Of a DNA stretch of 5,833 nt, positions 1 through 5,833 are shown in pieces. Numbering within the stretch: position 1 is the first letter of the stretch; every line of letters starts with the position of its first letter. Under the pieces are notes generated by a model that worked only from the letters and a program-made list of their open reading frames with translations, did no database searches and was not told the origin of the DNA. The position numbers and the translations under genes were made by a program. The stretch is from NCBI GenBank assembly GCA_017652545.1, contig JAGCAV010000557.1, forward strand, positions 1 through 5,833. The letters are read 5' to 3'. The DNA is from Lachnospiraceae bacterium (GTDB lineage Bacteria > Bacillota_A > Clostridia > Lachnospirales > Lachnospiraceae).

Positions 1-1533
1 ACCGCAGCCCATCACCTGGGTTACGGTCATGCCGGTGACGCCCAGGTCATTCATGGCCCGCTTGAGGGCGTCATATCTGGACAGCTTCGCAATAATGACC
101 ACTTTTGAAATGCCTGTATCCACGGCCGGAATGCCTGCACCGTCCGTTCGGATCACCTGAACTGCAGCGTTGCGCTTCGCTTCGGAAGCCTCATCATAAC
201 TGTCGGCTCCGAGGTTCGTGTTCTCATTGACGCTCATCATCATCGTGGTGGAAATATCCATGATGGAGAAGCCTGCATACGCGGAGGGGAGGCCGTGCTC
301 AGTGGAGTCAAGGCCCATCAGCTCTTCTTCCTCCGTCACCCGCAGTCCGACGGTCGCCCGGATGATGGAAAATGCGATGAAGATCGTCACAACTGTCCAG
401 GCTGCGGTGATGAACATGCCGCCGAACTGCTTGCCGAGCTGCACAAAGCCGCCGCCATAGAACAGACCTTCGCGAATCCCTGCCACAGCAAAGCCCGGTG
501 CACTTGAAGTCGCGAACAGGCCGACCGCGATGGTGCCCCAGATGCCGTTGATCATGTGAACTGCCACCGCACCGACCGGATCGTCCACATGGGTCACATG
601 GTCATTGAACCACACACCGAAGACCACCAGCAGACCGGATACGGCGCCGATGATGGCTGCGCCCGCGCAGTCCGTCACATCGCATGGCGCTGTTATGGCC
701 ACCAGACCTGCAAGTGAGGCGTTCAGACACAGGGAAACATCCGGCTTACCATACCTGATCCAGGTGTAGATCATGCACACAACGGTCGCAACGGAAGGCG
801 CCACTGTTGTCGTCAGGAAAACGGATCCCATCGTTGGCACATCTGTCGCAGCTGCTCCGTTGAAGCCGTACCAGCCGAGCCAGAGAATGAAGACGCCCAG
901 CGCCGCAATAACAAGGTTATGGCCGGGGAATGCGTTGACCTTGCTGATCTTCCCGCTCTTATCCTTCTCGAATTTGCCGATCCTGGGCCCCAGCATCCAG
1001 GCTCCGATGAAGGCGCAAATGCCACCGACCATGTGGATGCAGTTCGAACCCGCATAATCATGAAATCCCCACTGAACGAGGAAACCGCCACCCCAGGTCC
1101 AGTGCGCCTCGATCGGGTAGATCACGGCAGAGATGATGGCCGAATAGATACAGTAGCTGGAGAACTTGGTCCGCTCCGCCATGGATCCGGAAACGATCGT
1201 CGCAGTCGTCGCGCAGAAGACCAGGTTGAACACGAACGCGGAATAATTGAAGCTTCCGTAATGGGAAAACACGTCAAAGCTCAGGCCCCCGGCAAACCCC
1301 TTCAGGATGTTCGGCCCGAGCATCAGCGAAGCGCCGCAGATGAACCACATCACAGTTCCGATGCAGAAGTCCATCAGATTCTTCATGATGATGTTGCCTG
1401 CGTTCTTCGCCCTGGTGAAGCCCGCCTCACACATGGCAAAGCCGGCCTGCATCCAGAACACGAACGCGGCGCCAATCAGAAACCATACCGCAAAAATCTC
1501 TCCATCCAGTGCCTTCATGATCTCTTGTGTCAT
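1..1533 (-). CDS. amt: Ammonium transporter with C-terminal P-II domain (Amt–GlnK-type fusion), 3' part missing
   Basis: The frame is open from the ATG at 1533 to the left edge, giving 511 codons without a stop, so the gene is cut by the window. The protein is an Amt/MEP/Rh membrane channel for ammonium uptake. I see about 11 hydrophobic segments over residues 12-392 and the Amt signature DYAG at 159-162. Both pore histidines of the twin-His pair are present, H167 (CIHMVGG) and H326 (AVHMINGIWG). The usual cytoplasmic tail is at 398-422 (EEEELMGLDSTEHG). After a polar linker of about 50 residues, residues 476-511 (KVVIIAKLSRYDALKRAM, then GVTGMTVTQVMGCG) match the first strand and helix of a P-II signalling protein. 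The T-loop and nucleotide-binding parts lie outside the window. The start is supported by TGAGGAAA about 7 bases upstream. Amt–P-II fusions are known in Clostridia; in most bacteria GlnK is a separate protein that blocks the channel. Expression probably depends on the terminator-overlapping switch upstream. Confidence 0.95.
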   Translation of the reverse strand, partial: MTQEIMKALDGEIFAVWFLIGAAFVFWMQAGFAMCEAGFTRAKNAGNIIMKNLMDFCIGTVMWFICGASLMLGPNILKGFAGGLSFDVFSHYGSFNYSAFVFNLVFCATTATIVSGSMAERTKFSSYCIYSAIISAVIYPIEAHWTWGGGFLVQWGFHDYAGSNCIHMVGGICAFIGAWMLGPRIGKFEKDKSGKISKVNAFPGHNLVIAALGVFILWLGWYGFNGAAATDVPTMGSVFLTTTVAPSVATVVCMIYTWIRYGKPDVSLCLNASLAGLVAITAPCDVTDCAGAAIIGAVSGLLVVFGVWFNDHVTHVDDPVGAVAVHMINGIWGTIAVGLFATSSAPGFAVAGIREGLFYGGGFVQLGKQFGGMFITAAWTVVTIFIAFSIIRATVGLRVTEEEELMGLDSTEHGLPSAYAGFSIMDISTTMMMSVNENTNLGADSYDEASEAKRNAAVQVIRTDGAGIPAVDTGISKVVIIAKLSRYDALKRAMNDLGVTGMTVTQVMGCG

Positions 1534-1583: not shown

Positions 1584-1626
1584 AAAAAAGCCATCCCGCA
1601 CCAGCGAACCACGCCGTTGTGGGATG
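1584..1626 (-). terminator. Intrinsic terminator/attenuator between glnN and amt
   Basis: On the minus strand, CATCCC pairs with GGGATG (plus 1621-1626 and 1592-1597). Inside, CA pairs with TG, and CGGCG pairs with CGCTG around a TGGTT loop, with two single mismatches. After GC comes a run of six T. It lies 100 bases past the glnN stop and about 50 bases before the amt start. It could end the glnN transcript, but its 5' arm overlaps a hexaloop hairpin that excludes it. That makes it better read as a conditional terminator in the amt leader. Confidence 0.8.
1609..1622 (-). promoter_or_regulatory. ANTAR-type hexaloop hairpin in the amt leader (P2-like)
   Basis: The minus strand reads CCAC-AACGGC-GTGG: a 4-bp stem closing a six-base loop with A at position 1 and G at position 4. 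It uses bases that also form the 5' arm and apical stem of the terminator at 1584-1626, so the two folds exclude each other. In known ANTAR targets the second hexaloop hairpin overlaps the terminator in this way, and protein binding favours antitermination. The ACAACGGCGT core is nearly identical to the element before glnN. The stem is short and no upstream partner hairpin with an AxxGxx loop was found, so this is probable, not proven. Confidence 0.6.
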
Positions 1627-1662
1627 ACTTTGTTTCTCCTTCTTTATTCAATCAACCGGGGC

Positions 1663-1716
1663 TGATCACAGACCGTCCCCTGATCGGGGGCAATCACAGA
1701 ACCGTCCCCTGATTGG
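1663..1716. repeat. Two tandem GTCCCC-core repeats of REP type
   Basis: Two copies of ATCACAGA(A)CCGTCCCCTGAT lie head to tail at about 1663-1685 and 1691-1716, starting 9 bases past the glnN stop. Each copy is bounded by a short inverted repeat: GATCA/TGATC in the first and CAATCA/TGATTG in the second. The end bases differ between copies, but pairing is kept in both. Short AACCGTCCCC elements with imperfect palindromic ends are, from memory, common extragenic repeats in Firmicutes and other bacteria carrying REP-associated tyrosine transposases (RAYT/Y1 family). No transposase is present here. They could also act as a 3' mRNA hairpin for glnN. Confidence 0.65.
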
Positions 1717-1725
1717 CTGACTGCC

Positions 1726-3825
1726 TTAGTACACCGAGAACAGCAGCTTCCCGTAGCTCGGGAACGGCCAGCATTTCTCCGGCATCAGCATCTCCGCCTC
1801 GTCCACATGCTTTCTCAGATGTTCCATCTTCGGAAGCACATCGTCACGGATCGCCTCGGAAGTCTTCATGATATCTTCCATACCTTTCAGGTCTTCAAGG
1901 GCCTTCTCAAGATCCTTCACCCTCTCCAGTATGTAGTCTGTAAGCTCAGAAAGCCTCTCCAGCGTGGATACTTCGTAGTTGCACTTCACATGATCACTGA
2001 CCGACTTCATCATGGATGTGGTCCTTGCCAGGCTGTACAGATACTCCTCGATCGCCGGCAGGTAGTTCTTCCTGACCATATCGACCATGGTGTGTCCCTC
2101 AATGTTCACGGTCTTGCAGTAGTTCTCCAGCATGATCTCGCATCTGGAATGCAGTTCCGTCTCGGTGAATACCTTATGCGCCATGAGCATATCCATGTTC
2201 TTCTGATCCAGCAGATGCGGCATGGCATCCGCCGTGGTCTTCAGGTTGGACAGGCCGCGCACCTTCGTGGCTTCCTCCACCCACTCCTCTCCGTAACCGT
2301 TTCCGTTGAAGAGGATCCTCTGATGTTTTTCAATCGTCTCCTTGATCAGATCGTGCAATGCAGCCTCAAAGTCCTGCGCGCTTTCCAGACGATCCGCGTA
2401 CTGCATCAGGCTTTCCGCCACGGCAGCGTTCAGCATGATGTTGCAGCAGGCGATGCTGTTGGAGGAGCCGAGGGACCGGAATTCAAATTTGTTGCCTGTG
2501 AAAGCGAAGGGTGAAGTCCTGTTTCTGTCCGTCGTGTCCCTGAAAAATCTTGGGAGTGAATGGACACCGAGCTTCATCTTCACCTTCTCTGTTCCCTGGT
2601 AAGGCGTATCGGTCTTGATGGCTTCCAGGATACCGGTCAGCTCATCTCCCAGGAATACGGAAATGATCGCGGGCGGCGCTTCATTGGCACCAAGCCGGTG
2701 ATCGTTGCCAGCCGTTGCCACTGAGAGCCTCAGCAGATCCTGGTAATCGTCCACCGCCTGGATCACGGCGCAGAGGAAAAGCAGGAACTGCGCATTCTCA
2801 TAAGGCGTATCTCCCGGTGAGAGAAGGTTGACACCCGCATCCGTCGCCATGGACCAGTTGTTGTGCTTGCCGGACCCGTTCACACCTGCGAAGGGCTTCT
2901 CGTGGAGCAGGCAGACCAGGCCGTGTTTTCTGGCGACCTTTTGCATGATCTCCATGGTCAGCTGGTTGTTGTCCGTCGCCACGTTGGTCGTGGAGAAGAT
3001 CGGCGCCAGCTCGTGCTGGGCCGGGGCGACCTCATTATGCTCCGTCTTGGCCAGAATGCCGAGCTTCCACAGTTCCCTGTTCAGGTCATCCATGAAGGCA
3101 ATGACCCTGGGCTTGATCACGCCGAAGTAGTGATCATCCATCTCCTGTCCCTTCGGCGGCATGGCGCCGAACAGCGTCCTGCCGGTGTAGACAAGGTCCG
3201 GTCTCTTTTCAAACATTTCCCTGTCGATCAGGAAATATTCCTGTTCCGGTCCCACACTCGTGCGGACATTCTTCACTTCCGTGCCGAACAGCTTCAGGAT
3301 CCGCTTTGCCTGCTTGTTCAAGGCCTGCATGGACCGCAGCAGCGGCGTCTTCTTATCCAGCGCATCTCCCGAGTATGAGCAGAATGCGGTGGGAATACAC
3401 AGTGTATGGTCCTTGATAAAGGCATAGGAGGTGGGATCCCAGGCCGTATAGCCTCTGGCCTCAAAGGTCGCGCGCAGGCCTCCGGAAGGGAAGGACGAAG
3501 CATCCGGCTCTCCCTTGATCAGCTCCTTGCCCTTGAATTCCATGATCACGCCGCCATCCGGGGAAGGGGTGATAAAGCTGTCGTGCTTTTCTGCCGTTGT
3601 GCCGGTAAGCGGCTGGAACCAGTGCGTAAAATGCGTTGCCCCGCGCTCCACAGCCCAGTCACGCATCTCGGTTGCGACGGCCTCCGCGATCTCCTCATCA
3701 AGGTCTGCATTCTCATCTATCGTTCTGCGAAGGGAATTGTAAACTTTTGCCGACAATCTGGCTCTCATCTCCCTGTCGTCAAAAACCATCGAACCAAACA
3801 TCTCCGGTACACTTGTTTTCTCCAT
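1726..3825 (-). CDS. glnN: Type III glutamine synthetase (GSIII)
   Basis: A complete 699-residue protein, the usual size of GSIII (about 700; GSI is about 450-470). It makes glutamine from glutamate, ammonium and ATP in the cytoplasm, as a large oligomer in known family members. Landmarks in order: the GSIII N-terminal block [11 protein letters not shown] (65-75); [20 protein letters not shown] (112-131); the metal-site motif [10 protein letters not shown] (192-201); [12 protein letters not shown] (264-275); [10 protein letters not shown] (316-325) with the conserved histidine H321; [12 protein letters not shown] (374-385); and EFRSLGSS (448-455). The C-terminal 150 residues are charged and helical, as in other GSIII proteins. 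All expected catalytic motifs are intact. The ATG at 3825 is preceded 6 bases away by GGGAGG (3832-3837). It sits between asnB and amt, both on the same strand. Upstream, a terminator with an overlapping hexaloop hairpin suggests control by antitermination. Many databases label such proteins glnA. Confidence 0.97.
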
Positions 3826-3848
3826 AACGAACCTCCCTCTTATTGCAT

Positions 3849-3887
3849 AAAAAAGGCGCCACTGAGCCTGTTTTGCTCAAAGACGCC
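3849..3887 (-). terminator. Intrinsic terminator/attenuator in the glnN leader
   Basis: On the minus strand GGCGTCTTTGAGC pairs with GCTCAGTGGCGCC: 12 pairs (two G·T) and one T·T mismatch around the 7-base loop AAAACAG. Six T follow directly (plus 3849-3854). It ends only 11 bases before the glnN Shine-Dalgarno. It could be the asnB terminator, but there is no room for a promoter between it and glnN. glnN must therefore be transcribed through it, so an attenuator role is likely. The overlap with the hexaloop hairpin at 3880-3895 supports that. Confidence 0.85.
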
Positions 3888-3895
3888 ATTGTCTC
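3880..3895 (-). promoter_or_regulatory. ANTAR-type hexaloop hairpin in the glnN leader (P2-like)
   Basis: The minus strand reads GAGAC-AATGGC-GTCTT: four Watson-Crick pairs plus one G·U around a six-base loop with A1 and G4. The loop and 3' arm contain GGCGTCTT, which is the start of the 5' arm of the terminator, so the hairpin and terminator cannot coexist. This is the arrangement of the second hexaloop hairpin in ANTAR-controlled leaders. The core ACAATGGCGT differs by one base from the amt element. The best hairpin upstream (3919-3936, GGAG/CTCC) has an inner AAGCAG loop that lacks G4, so a standard first hexaloop is not evident. Confidence 0.62.
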
Positions 3896-3984: not shown

Positions 3985-5637
3985 TTATGTACCACTCTCC
4001 CCGTAGTTGGAAAGCACCCTGGCTGACGGATCATTCACATCACAGCCTTCCCAGTTCCTGTTGGGCATCCAGAAATCGACGACCATCTCAGACTGTCCGG
4101 GATAATACTTCTCAAAAATGTCACGGTAGAGCAGGGACTCCTTTGTAAACGGCCTTGCGTGATCGTACCTTTGGATGCCGGCTTCAAACGCTTCATCCGT
4201 ATAGGTCTCTTCCGCGTAGGCCTCCAGATCATCCTTCAGCGAATGACCTACCGCGTCTGAAAAGGCTGCCTTCTCCCGCCACAGGATATTGTCGGGGATC
4301 AGTTCATCATCTTCAAAGGCATGCCGCAGCAGGTATTTTCCCATTCCGTACCGGTTCAGCTTTTTCTTCGGGTCAATGGACATGCAGTAATCCACGAAAT
4401 CCAGATCACCGAAGGGGACCCTCGCTTCCAGGGAGTTGACGCTGATGCACCGGTCTGCCCGGAGTACATCATACATATGGATCTCGCGGATCCGCTTTTC
4501 GGCTTCCTTCTGGAACTCCTCCGCTGACGGGGCGAAATCCGTATATTTGTATCCGAAGATCTCGTCTGAGATCTCCCCGGTCAGGATCACTCGAAGATCC
4601 GACTGTTCATGGATCGCCTTGCATACCAGGTACATCCCCATGGAAGCCCGGATGGTCGTAATGTCGTAGGTTCCGAGCAGTTCGATCAGCGGCTCCAGCG
4701 CCCCGATCACATCATCCCGCGTGATGATCACCTCATGATGGTTGGAATGAATGAAGTCTGCCACCTGTCTGGCATACTTCAGATCGATCGCGTCCACATC
4801 CATTCCGACGGACCATGTCTCAAGCGGCTGATCCGTCATGCTGGCCGCGATCCCGCACACCAGCGATGAATCCAGTCCGCCCGAGAGAAGAAATCCTACG
4901 GGGGTATCGGAATCCAGTCTTTTCTTCACGCCCTGAAACAGCAGGTCATGAATGTTCTCGGACATCCGGAGCGGACCCTCGTCATGATAGGATCCCACTT
5001 CCGACATGTCCCGGTATCCGGTGAACACGCCGTTCTTGAAGTAATGCCCCGGCGGGAACGGTCTCACCTTGCCAACCAGCGGCACCAGGTTTTTCGGCTC
5101 GGACGCAAAGACATATGTTCCGTCGTCCCGGATCCCATAATACAGCGGGCGGATGCCGATCGGGTCCCTTGCTGCGATCCAGGTGTTTTCCTTCCTGTCG
5201 TACATGACCAGGGCAAACTCCGCGTCCAGCATGCGGAACATACCGGTTCCGTGTTCCCGGTAAAGGGCCGGAAGGATCTCACAGTCGGATCCGCTTGAAA
5301 AGGTGTATCCTTTTTCGATCAGTTCCTGCCGCAGAGGCCGGAAGCCGTAGATCTCTCCGTTGCAGGCGAGGATGATCCCGCTTTCTTCAGGAATATCATA
5401 TCCCTCTGAACCTTCCTGCAGGTCAGACAGTGTATATGTTCTCCGGTTCCCACAGACAAAAGGCTGCATGCCGTTTTCAGTCAGGCCCATGATGGACAGC
5501 CGGTTAAATCCGATCCATCCGTTTCCCGTATTGATGATCCTGGAATCATCCGGTCCCCTGGACTTGGTTGCCAGGAGCGCCTTCTGAATCTCGTCATATT
5601 CACCATTGCTTCCGCAAAAGCCAAATATCGAACACAT
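3985..5637 (-). CDS. asnB: Asparagine synthetase B, glutamine-hydrolysing
   Basis: A 550-residue protein, close to E. coli AsnB (554). It makes asparagine from aspartate, ATP and glutamine (EC 6.3.5.4) in the cytoplasm. The N-terminal Ntn-type glutaminase begins MCSIFGF, where Cys2 is the nucleophile after Met removal. It continues with R46 in NRLSI, NGEIY (93-97), GSDCE (116-120) and RDPIGIRPLYYG (157-168). The synthetase domain has the PP-loop SGGLDSS (252-258), the family-specific YDITTIRAS (324-332), TGEISDE (353-359), LEARVPFGD (403-411) and WREKAAFSDAVG (453-464). Two features differ from the E. coli enzyme: about 20 extra residues between QPF (58-60) and NGE (93-95), and Ile356 where E. 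coli has Gly in SGEGSDE. The ATG at 5637 is chosen because Cys must be residue 2 and AGGAGG lies 6 bases upstream. The frame stays open to an ATG at 5787, but that longer start would bury the catalytic Cys. Confidence 0.96.
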   Translation of the reverse strand: MCSIFGFCGSNGEYDEIQKALLATKSRGPDDSRIINTGNGWIGFNRLSIMGLTENGMQPFVCGNRRTYTLSDLQEGSEGYDIPEESGIILACNGEIYGFRPLRQELIEKGYTFSSGSDCEILPALYREHGTGMFRMLDAEFALVMYDRKENTWIAARDPIGIRPLYYGIRDDGTYVFASEPKNLVPLVGKVRPFPPGHYFKNGVFTGYRDMSEVGSYHDEGPLRMSENIHDLLFQGVKKRLDSDTPVGFLLSGGLDSSLVCGIAASMTDQPLETWSVGMDVDAIDLKYARQVADFIHSNHHEVIITRDDVIGALEPLIELLGTYDITTIRASMGMYLVCKAIHEQSDLRVILTGEISDEIFGYKYTDFAPSAEEFQKEAEKRIREIHMYDVLRADRCISVNSLEARVPFGDLDFVDYCMSIDPKKKLNRYGMGKYLLRHAFEDDELIPDNILWREKAAFSDAVGHSLKDDLEAYAEETYTDEAFEAGIQRYDHARPFTKESLLYRDIFEKYYPGQSEMVVDFWMPNRNWEGCDVNDPSARVLSNYGESGT

Positions 5638-5643
5638 GGCACA

Positions 5644-5649
5644 CCTCCT
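5644..5649 (-). promoter_or_regulatory. Shine-Dalgarno AGGAGG that fixes the asnB start
   Basis: A consensus AGGAGG lies 6 bases before the ATG at 5637. It settles the start in favour of the protein beginning with Met-Cys rather than the upstream in-frame ATG at 5787. Confidence 0.9.
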
Positions 5650-5662
5650 GTCCCGGTTTTTC

Positions 5663-5783
5663 GCCACGCACCTCGCGACCTGTGGTCGCTCGGTCGCGGC
5701 TGTCGCAGCATACAGACGAATGTCCTTCATATCTCCTGCGAGTAAACTCGCATCGAGCTGCAGGCCCTTCATATGTGCGTGGC
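5663..5783 (-). ncRNA. Putative structured leader RNA (or palindromic repeat element) upstream of asnB
   Basis: GCCACGCAC (minus strand, 5783-5775) is a perfect reverse complement of GTGCGTGGC (5671-5663), which closes a 121-base region. Inside, on the minus strand: GG-CTG-CAGC can pair with GCTG-CAG-CC (5757-5766 with 5698-5709, one single and one three-base bulge). TGCGAG-TTTA-CTCGCA is a perfect 6-bp hairpin (5737-5752). GGAC-ATTC-GTCT is a small hairpin (5714-5725). CGCGACC pairs with GGTCGCG (5674-5698). The 9-mer ATATGAAGG occurs twice, 42 bases apart, each time just after a helix. The nested layout resembles a multi-branched regulatory RNA, and it ends about 13 bases before the Shine-Dalgarno. 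I cannot match it to a known riboswitch, and it has no T-box sequence. An interspersed repeat is the main alternative. Confidence 0.45.
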
Positions 5784-5797
5784 TCATAGCTCACACG

Positions 5798-5833
5798 CAA
5801 AGAAGTCGCCCTGGAATTTCTTCCAAGACGACT
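5798..5833 (-). terminator. Strong GAAA-capped hairpin with T-rich tail at the right edge
   Basis: On the minus strand 13 consecutive pairs (two G·T) form between AGTCGTCTTGGAA and TTCCAGGGCGACT around a GAAA tetraloop, followed by TCTTTG. It may end an upstream gene outside the window or act as an attenuator in the asnB leader. The short, interrupted T-run makes termination less certain than at the other two sites. The hairpin is cut by the window edge and may be longer. Confidence 0.6.

Follow-up and report, generated by a model that had tools for sequence, protein, structure and literature searches.

The window analysed here, the whole of a 5,833-nucleotide stretch of DNA from a Lachnospiraceae bacterium (contig JAGCAV010000557.1), carries on its minus strand the genes asnB, glnA and amt, in that order, and in front of them lie leaders in which a small hairpin with a six-base loop (hexaloop) is merged with an intrinsic terminator. 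We consider it likely that these leaders are attenuators, and that one ANTAR protein antiterminates them through the single hexaloop and in this way sets many glutamine operons. The leader elements are the following.

3880..3895, minus strand: hexaloop hairpin of the glnA leader, GAGAC[AATGGC]GTCTT, 5 bp, the presumed ANTAR docking site
3849..3887, minus strand: intrinsic terminator of the glnA leader, stem 3855-3887, U tract 3849-3854, minimum free energy -18.0 kcal/mol, z -3.07
1609..1622, minus strand: hexaloop hairpin of the amt leader, CCAC[AACGGC]GTGG, 4 bp
1584..1628, minus strand: intrinsic terminator of the amt leader, stem 1590-1628, U tract 1584-1589, -22.9 kcal/mol, z -4.42
5804..5833, minus strand: 3' part of a third unit, the terminator hairpin of the asnB leader, z -4.06

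The 5' arm of the glnA-leader terminator consists of the 3' half of the loop together with the 3' strand of the hexaloop hairpin, and the amt-leader terminator overlaps the amt hexaloop hairpin. Both complete units end upstream of the start codons. In both, the hexaloop has A1 and G4 and is carried by a stem of 3 bp or more, as in known ANTAR targets, and, like the P2 hairpin of such targets, the hairpin extends into the 5' arm of an intrinsic terminator (PMC3369931). A first-pass annotation of the window had reported the same loop in two leaders with unrelated terminator stems, and this was correct: two closed hexaloops differing by one pyrimidine each lie in a terminator 5' arm, and the stem sequences of the glnA and amt leaders do differ. 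Its count of two leaders missed the asnB unit, the hexaloop of which is interrupted by the window edge so that the last four loop letters are visible. This fragment can be aligned to the full asnB leader units of the two closest relatives (L001, at 1574, and L002, at 759); its visible letters are AGTC, compared with AGGC in both relatives, a departure from the consensus at position 5 that is matched by a change in the opposite terminator arm. The ten-base core that the annotation had proposed, ACAAYGGCGY, occurs exactly twice in the window (1611-1620 and 3883-3892, both minus strand), where 0.06 occurrences are expected and none of 200 shuffles reaches two, for a motif picked post hoc. The core is indeed shared, with too many of its bases taken as fixed, since across the units described below the conserved loop is AANGGC.

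The regulon and the ANTAR link were tested in relatives of the window. The 80 best of 585 loci whose genes code for proteins related to the glnA product were combined with the window (1.27 Mb in all) and scanned for hexaloops of the form C-[A..G..]-G that have a stem of 4 bp or more and overlap a terminator, so that A1, G4 and the C-G pair that closes the loop are imposed. This yielded 186 units, compared with 1, 2, 7, 7, 17, 3, 7, 9 and 11 for nine control loops with altered fixed letters that were passed through the same filter. At the positions left free the consensus AANGGC emerges, with A at position 2 in 181 of the 186 units, G at position 5 in 167 and C at position 6 in 171. In an alignment of 63 units, chosen from 112 non-redundant ones and with one window unit added by hand, the pair next to the closing C-G is G-U, A-U or G-C, and pairing reaches 97.5% in the helix of the hexaloop (38 double-change cells) and 91.6% in that of the terminator (138), counts that lean toward structure because the scan itself demanded a hairpin and a terminator. 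A unit lies within 450 nt upstream of glnA in 63 of the 80 loci, and 21 of these 63 have two or more in tandem. At two places (L068 9908-9971 and L072 2446-2506) hexaloop and terminator can be read on both strands. Among viral contigs no relative of glnA was found.

The feature that is new here is that the usual second hairpin is missing. Known ANTAR targets contain two hexaloops, P1 and P2 (PMC3369931), which in the eut leaders of E. faecalis are separated by linkers of 5-12 nt (PMC3369931). An upstream P1 on a short linker, as described for those targets (PMC3369931), is not a feature of our units. In the 45 nt upstream of each unit (units with less upstream sequence being skipped), P1-like hairpins of at least 3 bp were found 20 times, compared with 21.0 in shuffled sequence, which is the chance level, and those of at least 4 bp 7 times, compared with 8.3. 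The window's glnA leader has no P1 that we could find, and its amt leader has a weak 3-bp A..G.. hairpin, TTG[ATTGAA]TAA, about 20 nt upstream of the hexaloop. A second hexaloop inside the terminator is near chance at a threshold of 3 bp (17 compared with 14.3 in shuffled sequence), and at 4 bp is seen in 10 of 186 units compared with 5.4. The position of promoters is consistent with this. Of the 186 units, 127 have a match to a sigma-70-type promoter no more than 120 nt away, and for 105 units the gap from the end of the -10 box to the stem is 3-12 nt (median 8), an arrangement found at 0.5% of random positions and in 0.7% of shuffled upstream sequences. With the -10 box so close to the hairpin there is no room for a P1, and transcription would start at about the hairpin base. 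As a positive control, the same detector was applied to ten ANTAR neighbourhoods from the order of genome G013 and listed eight leaders, of which those before eutS (L189) and eutA (L194) had dual hexaloops, and those of an amt-like gene, asnA, asnB, two glutamate-synthase-amidotransferase-like genes and an ANTAR gene had a single one.

The genes that follow the units are largely concerned with glutamine. In the first set, the downstream open reading frames encode type III glutamine synthetase (GSIII) behind 88 units, a number that largely reflects how the search was set up, and further comprise the glutamate synthase amidotransferase (40), asnB (12), amt (11), gdhA (6), pyrG (4), and carA, purF and purC (2 each). 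Twelve single cases include dapL, gltD, purA and guaA, and also a transposase-like and a MATE-like gene, as judged by eye. Units from genome searches precede carA, nifH (in three genomes), amt, asnA, type I glutamine synthetase (GS), pyrG, purF and asnB, as well as a PII-like gene and GlnQ-like, nitrilase-like and xanthine-dehydrogenase-like genes, the PII-like gene and these three all scoring below family cut-offs. In R. torques (L051), one strand carries a unit followed by GATase_2, Glu_synthase, GXGXG, type I GS and the ANTAR gene, which presumably sits behind one of its own targets; divergently, two tandem units precede GSIII and an Amt-PII fusion. Units in L143, L144, L134, L223, L169 and L183 stand before genes of no obvious nitrogen role, and these genes are possible further members of the regulon. 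The proteins of L134 and L223 are related to each other, and that of L223 has a weak phosphoenolpyruvate-synthase-like end.

The units occur together with ANTAR genes. In 40 genomes chosen from the 80 source genomes, an ANTAR domain (PF03861) above its cut-off was found in 38, of which 35 have a single ANTAR gene and 3 a pair; the 38 include G001 and G002, the GSIII of which is 96 and 95% identical to that of the window. In G018 and G030, the two genomes that lack ANTAR, glnA is not preceded by a unit (L026 and L050), and our unit model R1 gave 0 and 1 hits, the single hit covering the terminator part only. Linkage to glnA could be determined in 33 ANTAR-containing genomes (five others were left out): in 26 the two genes share a contig, and the distance between them is at most 10 kb in 20 genomes and at most 20 kb in 25. 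Of 147 genomes sampled from the order of G013, 109 had ANTAR, and R1 hits below 1e-3 were obtained in 10 of 20 chosen ANTAR-positive compared with 0 of 20 ANTAR-negative genomes; the former were drawn from the 109 with several genomes omitted that had two ANTAR genes or EutV-like scores, the latter were the 20 listed of 38, and one of the ten ANTAR-positive genomes with a hit was in the R1 training set, to which G013 belongs. Two ANTAR-negative genomes of this order gave weaker R1 hits with no hexaloop. In a phylum-wide sample of 249 genomes that was not hand-picked, 124 had ANTAR and 31 had R1 hits, distributed as 28 of 124 ANTAR-positive compared with 3 of 125 ANTAR-negative genomes (Fisher p 5.7e-7, on raw hits). 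On inspection, with 3-bp stems accepted, a hexaloop was present in all 27 ANTAR-positive genomes examined, some with such stems, and in none of the 3 ANTAR-negative ones; the L201 unit was missed by the scanner and read by eye, and G335, ANTAR-positive with a hit, was not among the 27. Twenty regions around pattern or weak model hits (17 ANTAR-positive, 3 ANTAR-negative) contained a unit in five cases, with the L155 loop lying outside AANGGC, and none in 15, including all 3 ANTAR-negative ones. G411 (L215) and G220 (L216) share an identical GACAAAGCCGC terminator with no hexaloop, and of the 13 hits to this terminator in G411, 6 are no more than about 350 bases from where a contig begins, as would be seen at the edge of a repeated element.

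These data bear on the remaining proposals of the first-pass annotation, which had neither named ANTAR nor noticed that the usual second hairpin is absent. Its argument that one loop implies one factor gains support, as the loop-plus-terminator unit co-occurs with ANTAR proteins in relatives. The nitrogen genes it expected are present in relatives for glutamate synthase, glnA, amt, asnB and nifH, and no urease gene was seen. Random placement of the core, which it had named as evidence against a regulon, is what we find for the bare core without a terminator, and only there: of 7 genomes, 6 had fewer matches to a 14-base pattern built on the core than to the reversed control, the exception being G013. 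The bare core is thus not rare in genomes and is informative only in combination with the hairpin and terminator.

The regulators themselves have a degenerate receiver domain. The glnA-linked proteins keep the layout of receiver, coiled coil and ANTAR domain, the last (PF03861) above its curated cut-off, and do not have the intact receiver of the EutV type, with acidic pair and Asp. In an alignment of 23 proteins the acidic pair has been replaced, for the most part by SS, SG or SA, and the phospho-acceptor position is Asn in 16 and Asp in 1; 9 of 10 scanned proteins match Response_reg at all, every match falling below the Pfam cut-off. Eight further proteins (L224-L231), whose genomes all have two ANTAR matches, keep an Asp, and the seven with the start covered have lost the acidic pair; of five scanned for Response_reg, four scored 46.5-57.3 bits and one 29.4 (cut-off 30.2). 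Five ANTAR proteins with canonical receivers score 88.6-96.6 bits, and two of these adjoin dual eut leaders. An AlphaFold2 model of the R. torques ANTAR protein (predicted local distance difference test score 91.8) has as best Foldseek hits EutV (6wsh and 6ww6, over 189-192 columns), Rv1626 and AmiR; in Foldseek/VIA-align comparison the receiver part also matches many receivers, a likeness that says nothing on function. Given the degenerate receiver, the regulator is probably driven by a partner protein or a ligand rather than by phosphorylation.

A mechanism can be proposed on this basis. By default the nascent RNA would fold into the terminator, and transcription would halt before glnA, amt or asnB. 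An activated ANTAR dimer, the gene for which is usually near glnA in relatives, would bind the A1/G4 hexaloop as it emerges and keep the hairpin folded; because the 3' half of the loop and the strand that follows it form the terminator 5' arm, the terminator could then not form and the gene would be read. One ANTAR protein might so set jointly many operons that make or use glutamine. A single hexaloop would suffice. In most of the relatives that show a promoter it would stand right at the 5' terminus of the RNA, where early folding of the hairpin may replace recruitment by P1. The gene set, which combines glutamine production with several glutamine amidotransferases, suggests glutamine or nitrogen status as the signal. 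ANTAR binding, the antiterminating direction and this signal are our inference, whereas the anatomy of the leaders, their conservation, the gene set, the co-occurrence with ANTAR and the lack of P1 are seen directly in the sequences.

Several points weigh against this mechanism, in addition to the bias in pair counts given above. The ANTAR link is known from relatives of the window and not from the window's own genome, and no promoter match adjoins the window's own glnA and amt units, which may be reached by read-through transcription from asnB. In 17 of the 80 loci no unit lies within 450 nt of glnA; 8 of these 17 contain one at another place, and in L075 the sequence upstream of the gene is missing. 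Some units precede genes without a clear nitrogen link, for example in L165 (no family), L223 and L169. R1 gave no hit in 96 of 124 ANTAR-positive genomes of the phylum sample, which are not to be taken as negatives because sensitivity is low, with 22 candidates scored per genome. Of the seven contacts described for EutV (PMC8934654), mapped with an offset between chain and paper numbering that was worked out in this analysis, the Met172 equivalent alone is invariant in the 23 proteins; L106 has Arg and Lys at the positions of the two lysines and differs at the remaining four. Most directly, deletion of P1 abolished induction of E. faecalis eutP (PMC3369931), and antitermination by EutV is said to require both hexaloops (PMC8934654). 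As such, a single-hexaloop antiterminator contradicts the best-studied case, unless the ANTAR clade or the 5'-end position alters the rule. It has also been reported that the EutV dimer contacts one hexaloop, with P1 termed a recruitment hairpin (PMC8934654).

It could be argued that our units are ordinary dual-hexaloop targets, with nothing new in them, in which P1 is irregular or is supplied by an upstream tandem unit. Tandem units in 21 of 63 glnA leaders, the weak hairpin upstream in the window's amt leader, the modest excess of second hexaloops of at least 4 bp within terminators and the description as dual of about 400 ANTAR RNAs from firmicutes and proteobacteria (PMC8164766) are all in agreement with such a view. 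It is nevertheless unlikely, as P1-like hairpins occur at the shuffled rate at either stem length, second hexaloops at the 3-bp threshold are near chance, the promoter leaves no room for P1 in 105 units, and the detector that failed to find dual hexaloops here does find them at two eut genes. We would give about as little credence to the proposal that ANTAR binds the hexaloop with another outcome, be it enhanced termination, control of translation or titration of the protein by short leader RNAs. Abundant short 5'-terminal transcripts would make good decoys, and a small RNA decoy for EutV, EutX, has been discussed (PMC8934654); however, hexaloop and terminator share a strand, so that binding should oppose the terminator, and the complete units of the window end before the start codons.

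Two explanations dispense with ANTAR altogether. A protein-free riboswitch for glutamine or ammonium that shares the loop would be in keeping with a hairpin often at the 5' end and with genes that mostly concern glutamine, but one short hairpin and a terminator offer little room for an aptamer, no Rfam family exceeds its gathering score in the window (the three matches, with E up to 10, are all to snoRNA families and fall below gathering), and the unit co-occurs with ANTAR genes; we regard this as very improbable. That two plain terminators resemble each other by chance is harder still to believe. The bare core is at or below background in six of seven genomes, and 15 of 20 regions around weaker hits lack a unit, but the 186 units compared with 1-17 for scrambled loops, the conserved gene set and the ANTAR co-occurrence all speak against chance. 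Antitermination by an ANTAR protein through a single hexaloop is the explanation that we favour.

The genes of the window are assigned as follows.

3985..5637, minus strand: asnB, glutamine-hydrolysing asparagine synthase
1726..3825, minus strand: glnA, type III glutamine synthetase, matching GSIII_N PF12437 and Gln-synt_C-ter
1..1533, minus strand: amt ammonium transporter, matching Ammonium_transp only, the gene continuing past base 1 at the window edge

By eye, the final visible residues of Amt resemble the start of a PII domain, and in the R. torques relative (L051) Amt and PII are joined in one open reading frame. Upstream of the amt attenuator, at 1672-1716, are two near-identical 16-nt repeats (94%, spacing 29; GGGGACGGT on the minus strand), which we take to resemble dispersed REP-like (repetitive extragenic palindromic) repeats. 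A second inverted repeat, with 17-nt arms (88% complementary), occupies 1553-1589 in the stretch from the amt terminator to the start codon and has no U tract in the amt direction. At 5638-5803, the spacing from the asnB terminator to the start codon is about 130 nt longer than in L002.

The idea of such a regulon is not itself new, since ANTAR regulons for nitrogen genes have already been predicted (PMC3369931), and some of these leaders may be listed in the supplementary tables of that paper. Our literature searches, which left most subscription papers outside, found no single-hexaloop antiterminator class for nitrogen genes and no paper describing this nitrogen switch in Lachnospiraceae. 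We lean toward a broader proposal, held with somewhat less assurance than the mechanism itself, that a large single-hexaloop ANTAR class, defined by a 5'-end hairpin and a non-phosphorylated pseudo-receiver, forms the general nitrogen and glutamine regulon in gut and rumen Clostridia. If so, the two-hairpin rule would be a feature of one ANTAR branch and not of the mechanism. With a natural family that seems to manage without the first hairpin, why EutV needs two hairpins though its structure shows a dimer on one (PMC8934654) becomes an experimentally direct question. Searches built on the dual motif could miss single-hexaloop leaders. For ammonium assimilation in bacteria of the Lachnospiraceae and Oscillospiraceae type, our analysis provides a concrete switch together with a candidate for its factor and a list of genes.

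Among known systems, the targets of EutV (eutP), NasR (nasF) and AmiR (amiE) (PMC3369931) are alike in their A1/G4 hexaloop on a short stem, in the overlap of P2 with the terminator 5' arm, in the nitrogen genes downstream and in the presence of several leaders per genome. They differ in that the units described here have one hexaloop, mostly with the loop AANGGC, and in that a P1 is no more frequent here than by chance and is in many units left no place by the promoter position. EutV itself, a REC-ANTAR protein, shares with the glnA-linked proteins the overall fold as judged by Foldseek, the ANTAR domain and the Met172 equivalent, whereas the latter have lost the acidic pair and mostly carry Asn in place of the phospho-acceptor Asp. 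AmiR, which acts with AmiC, is likewise a pseudo-receiver ANTAR protein not driven by phosphorylation (PMC3369936), but controls a single locus, and the amiE leader is dual-hexaloop (PMC3369931). A precedent in gene order is Clo1313_2030 of C. thermocellum and nitR of C. acetobutylicum, where an ANTAR gene ends a cluster for glutamate synthase (GOGAT) and GS, and which have been suggested to encode an antiterminator for ammonia assimilation (PMC4676874). Expression of the ANTAR gene of the C. thermocellum GOGAT cluster falls along with that of a separate GS gene (PMC4676874). The excerpted text of that report describes no leader RNA, hexaloop or regulon, and it is in these respects that the single-hexaloop leaders of the window and its relatives differ from this precedent.

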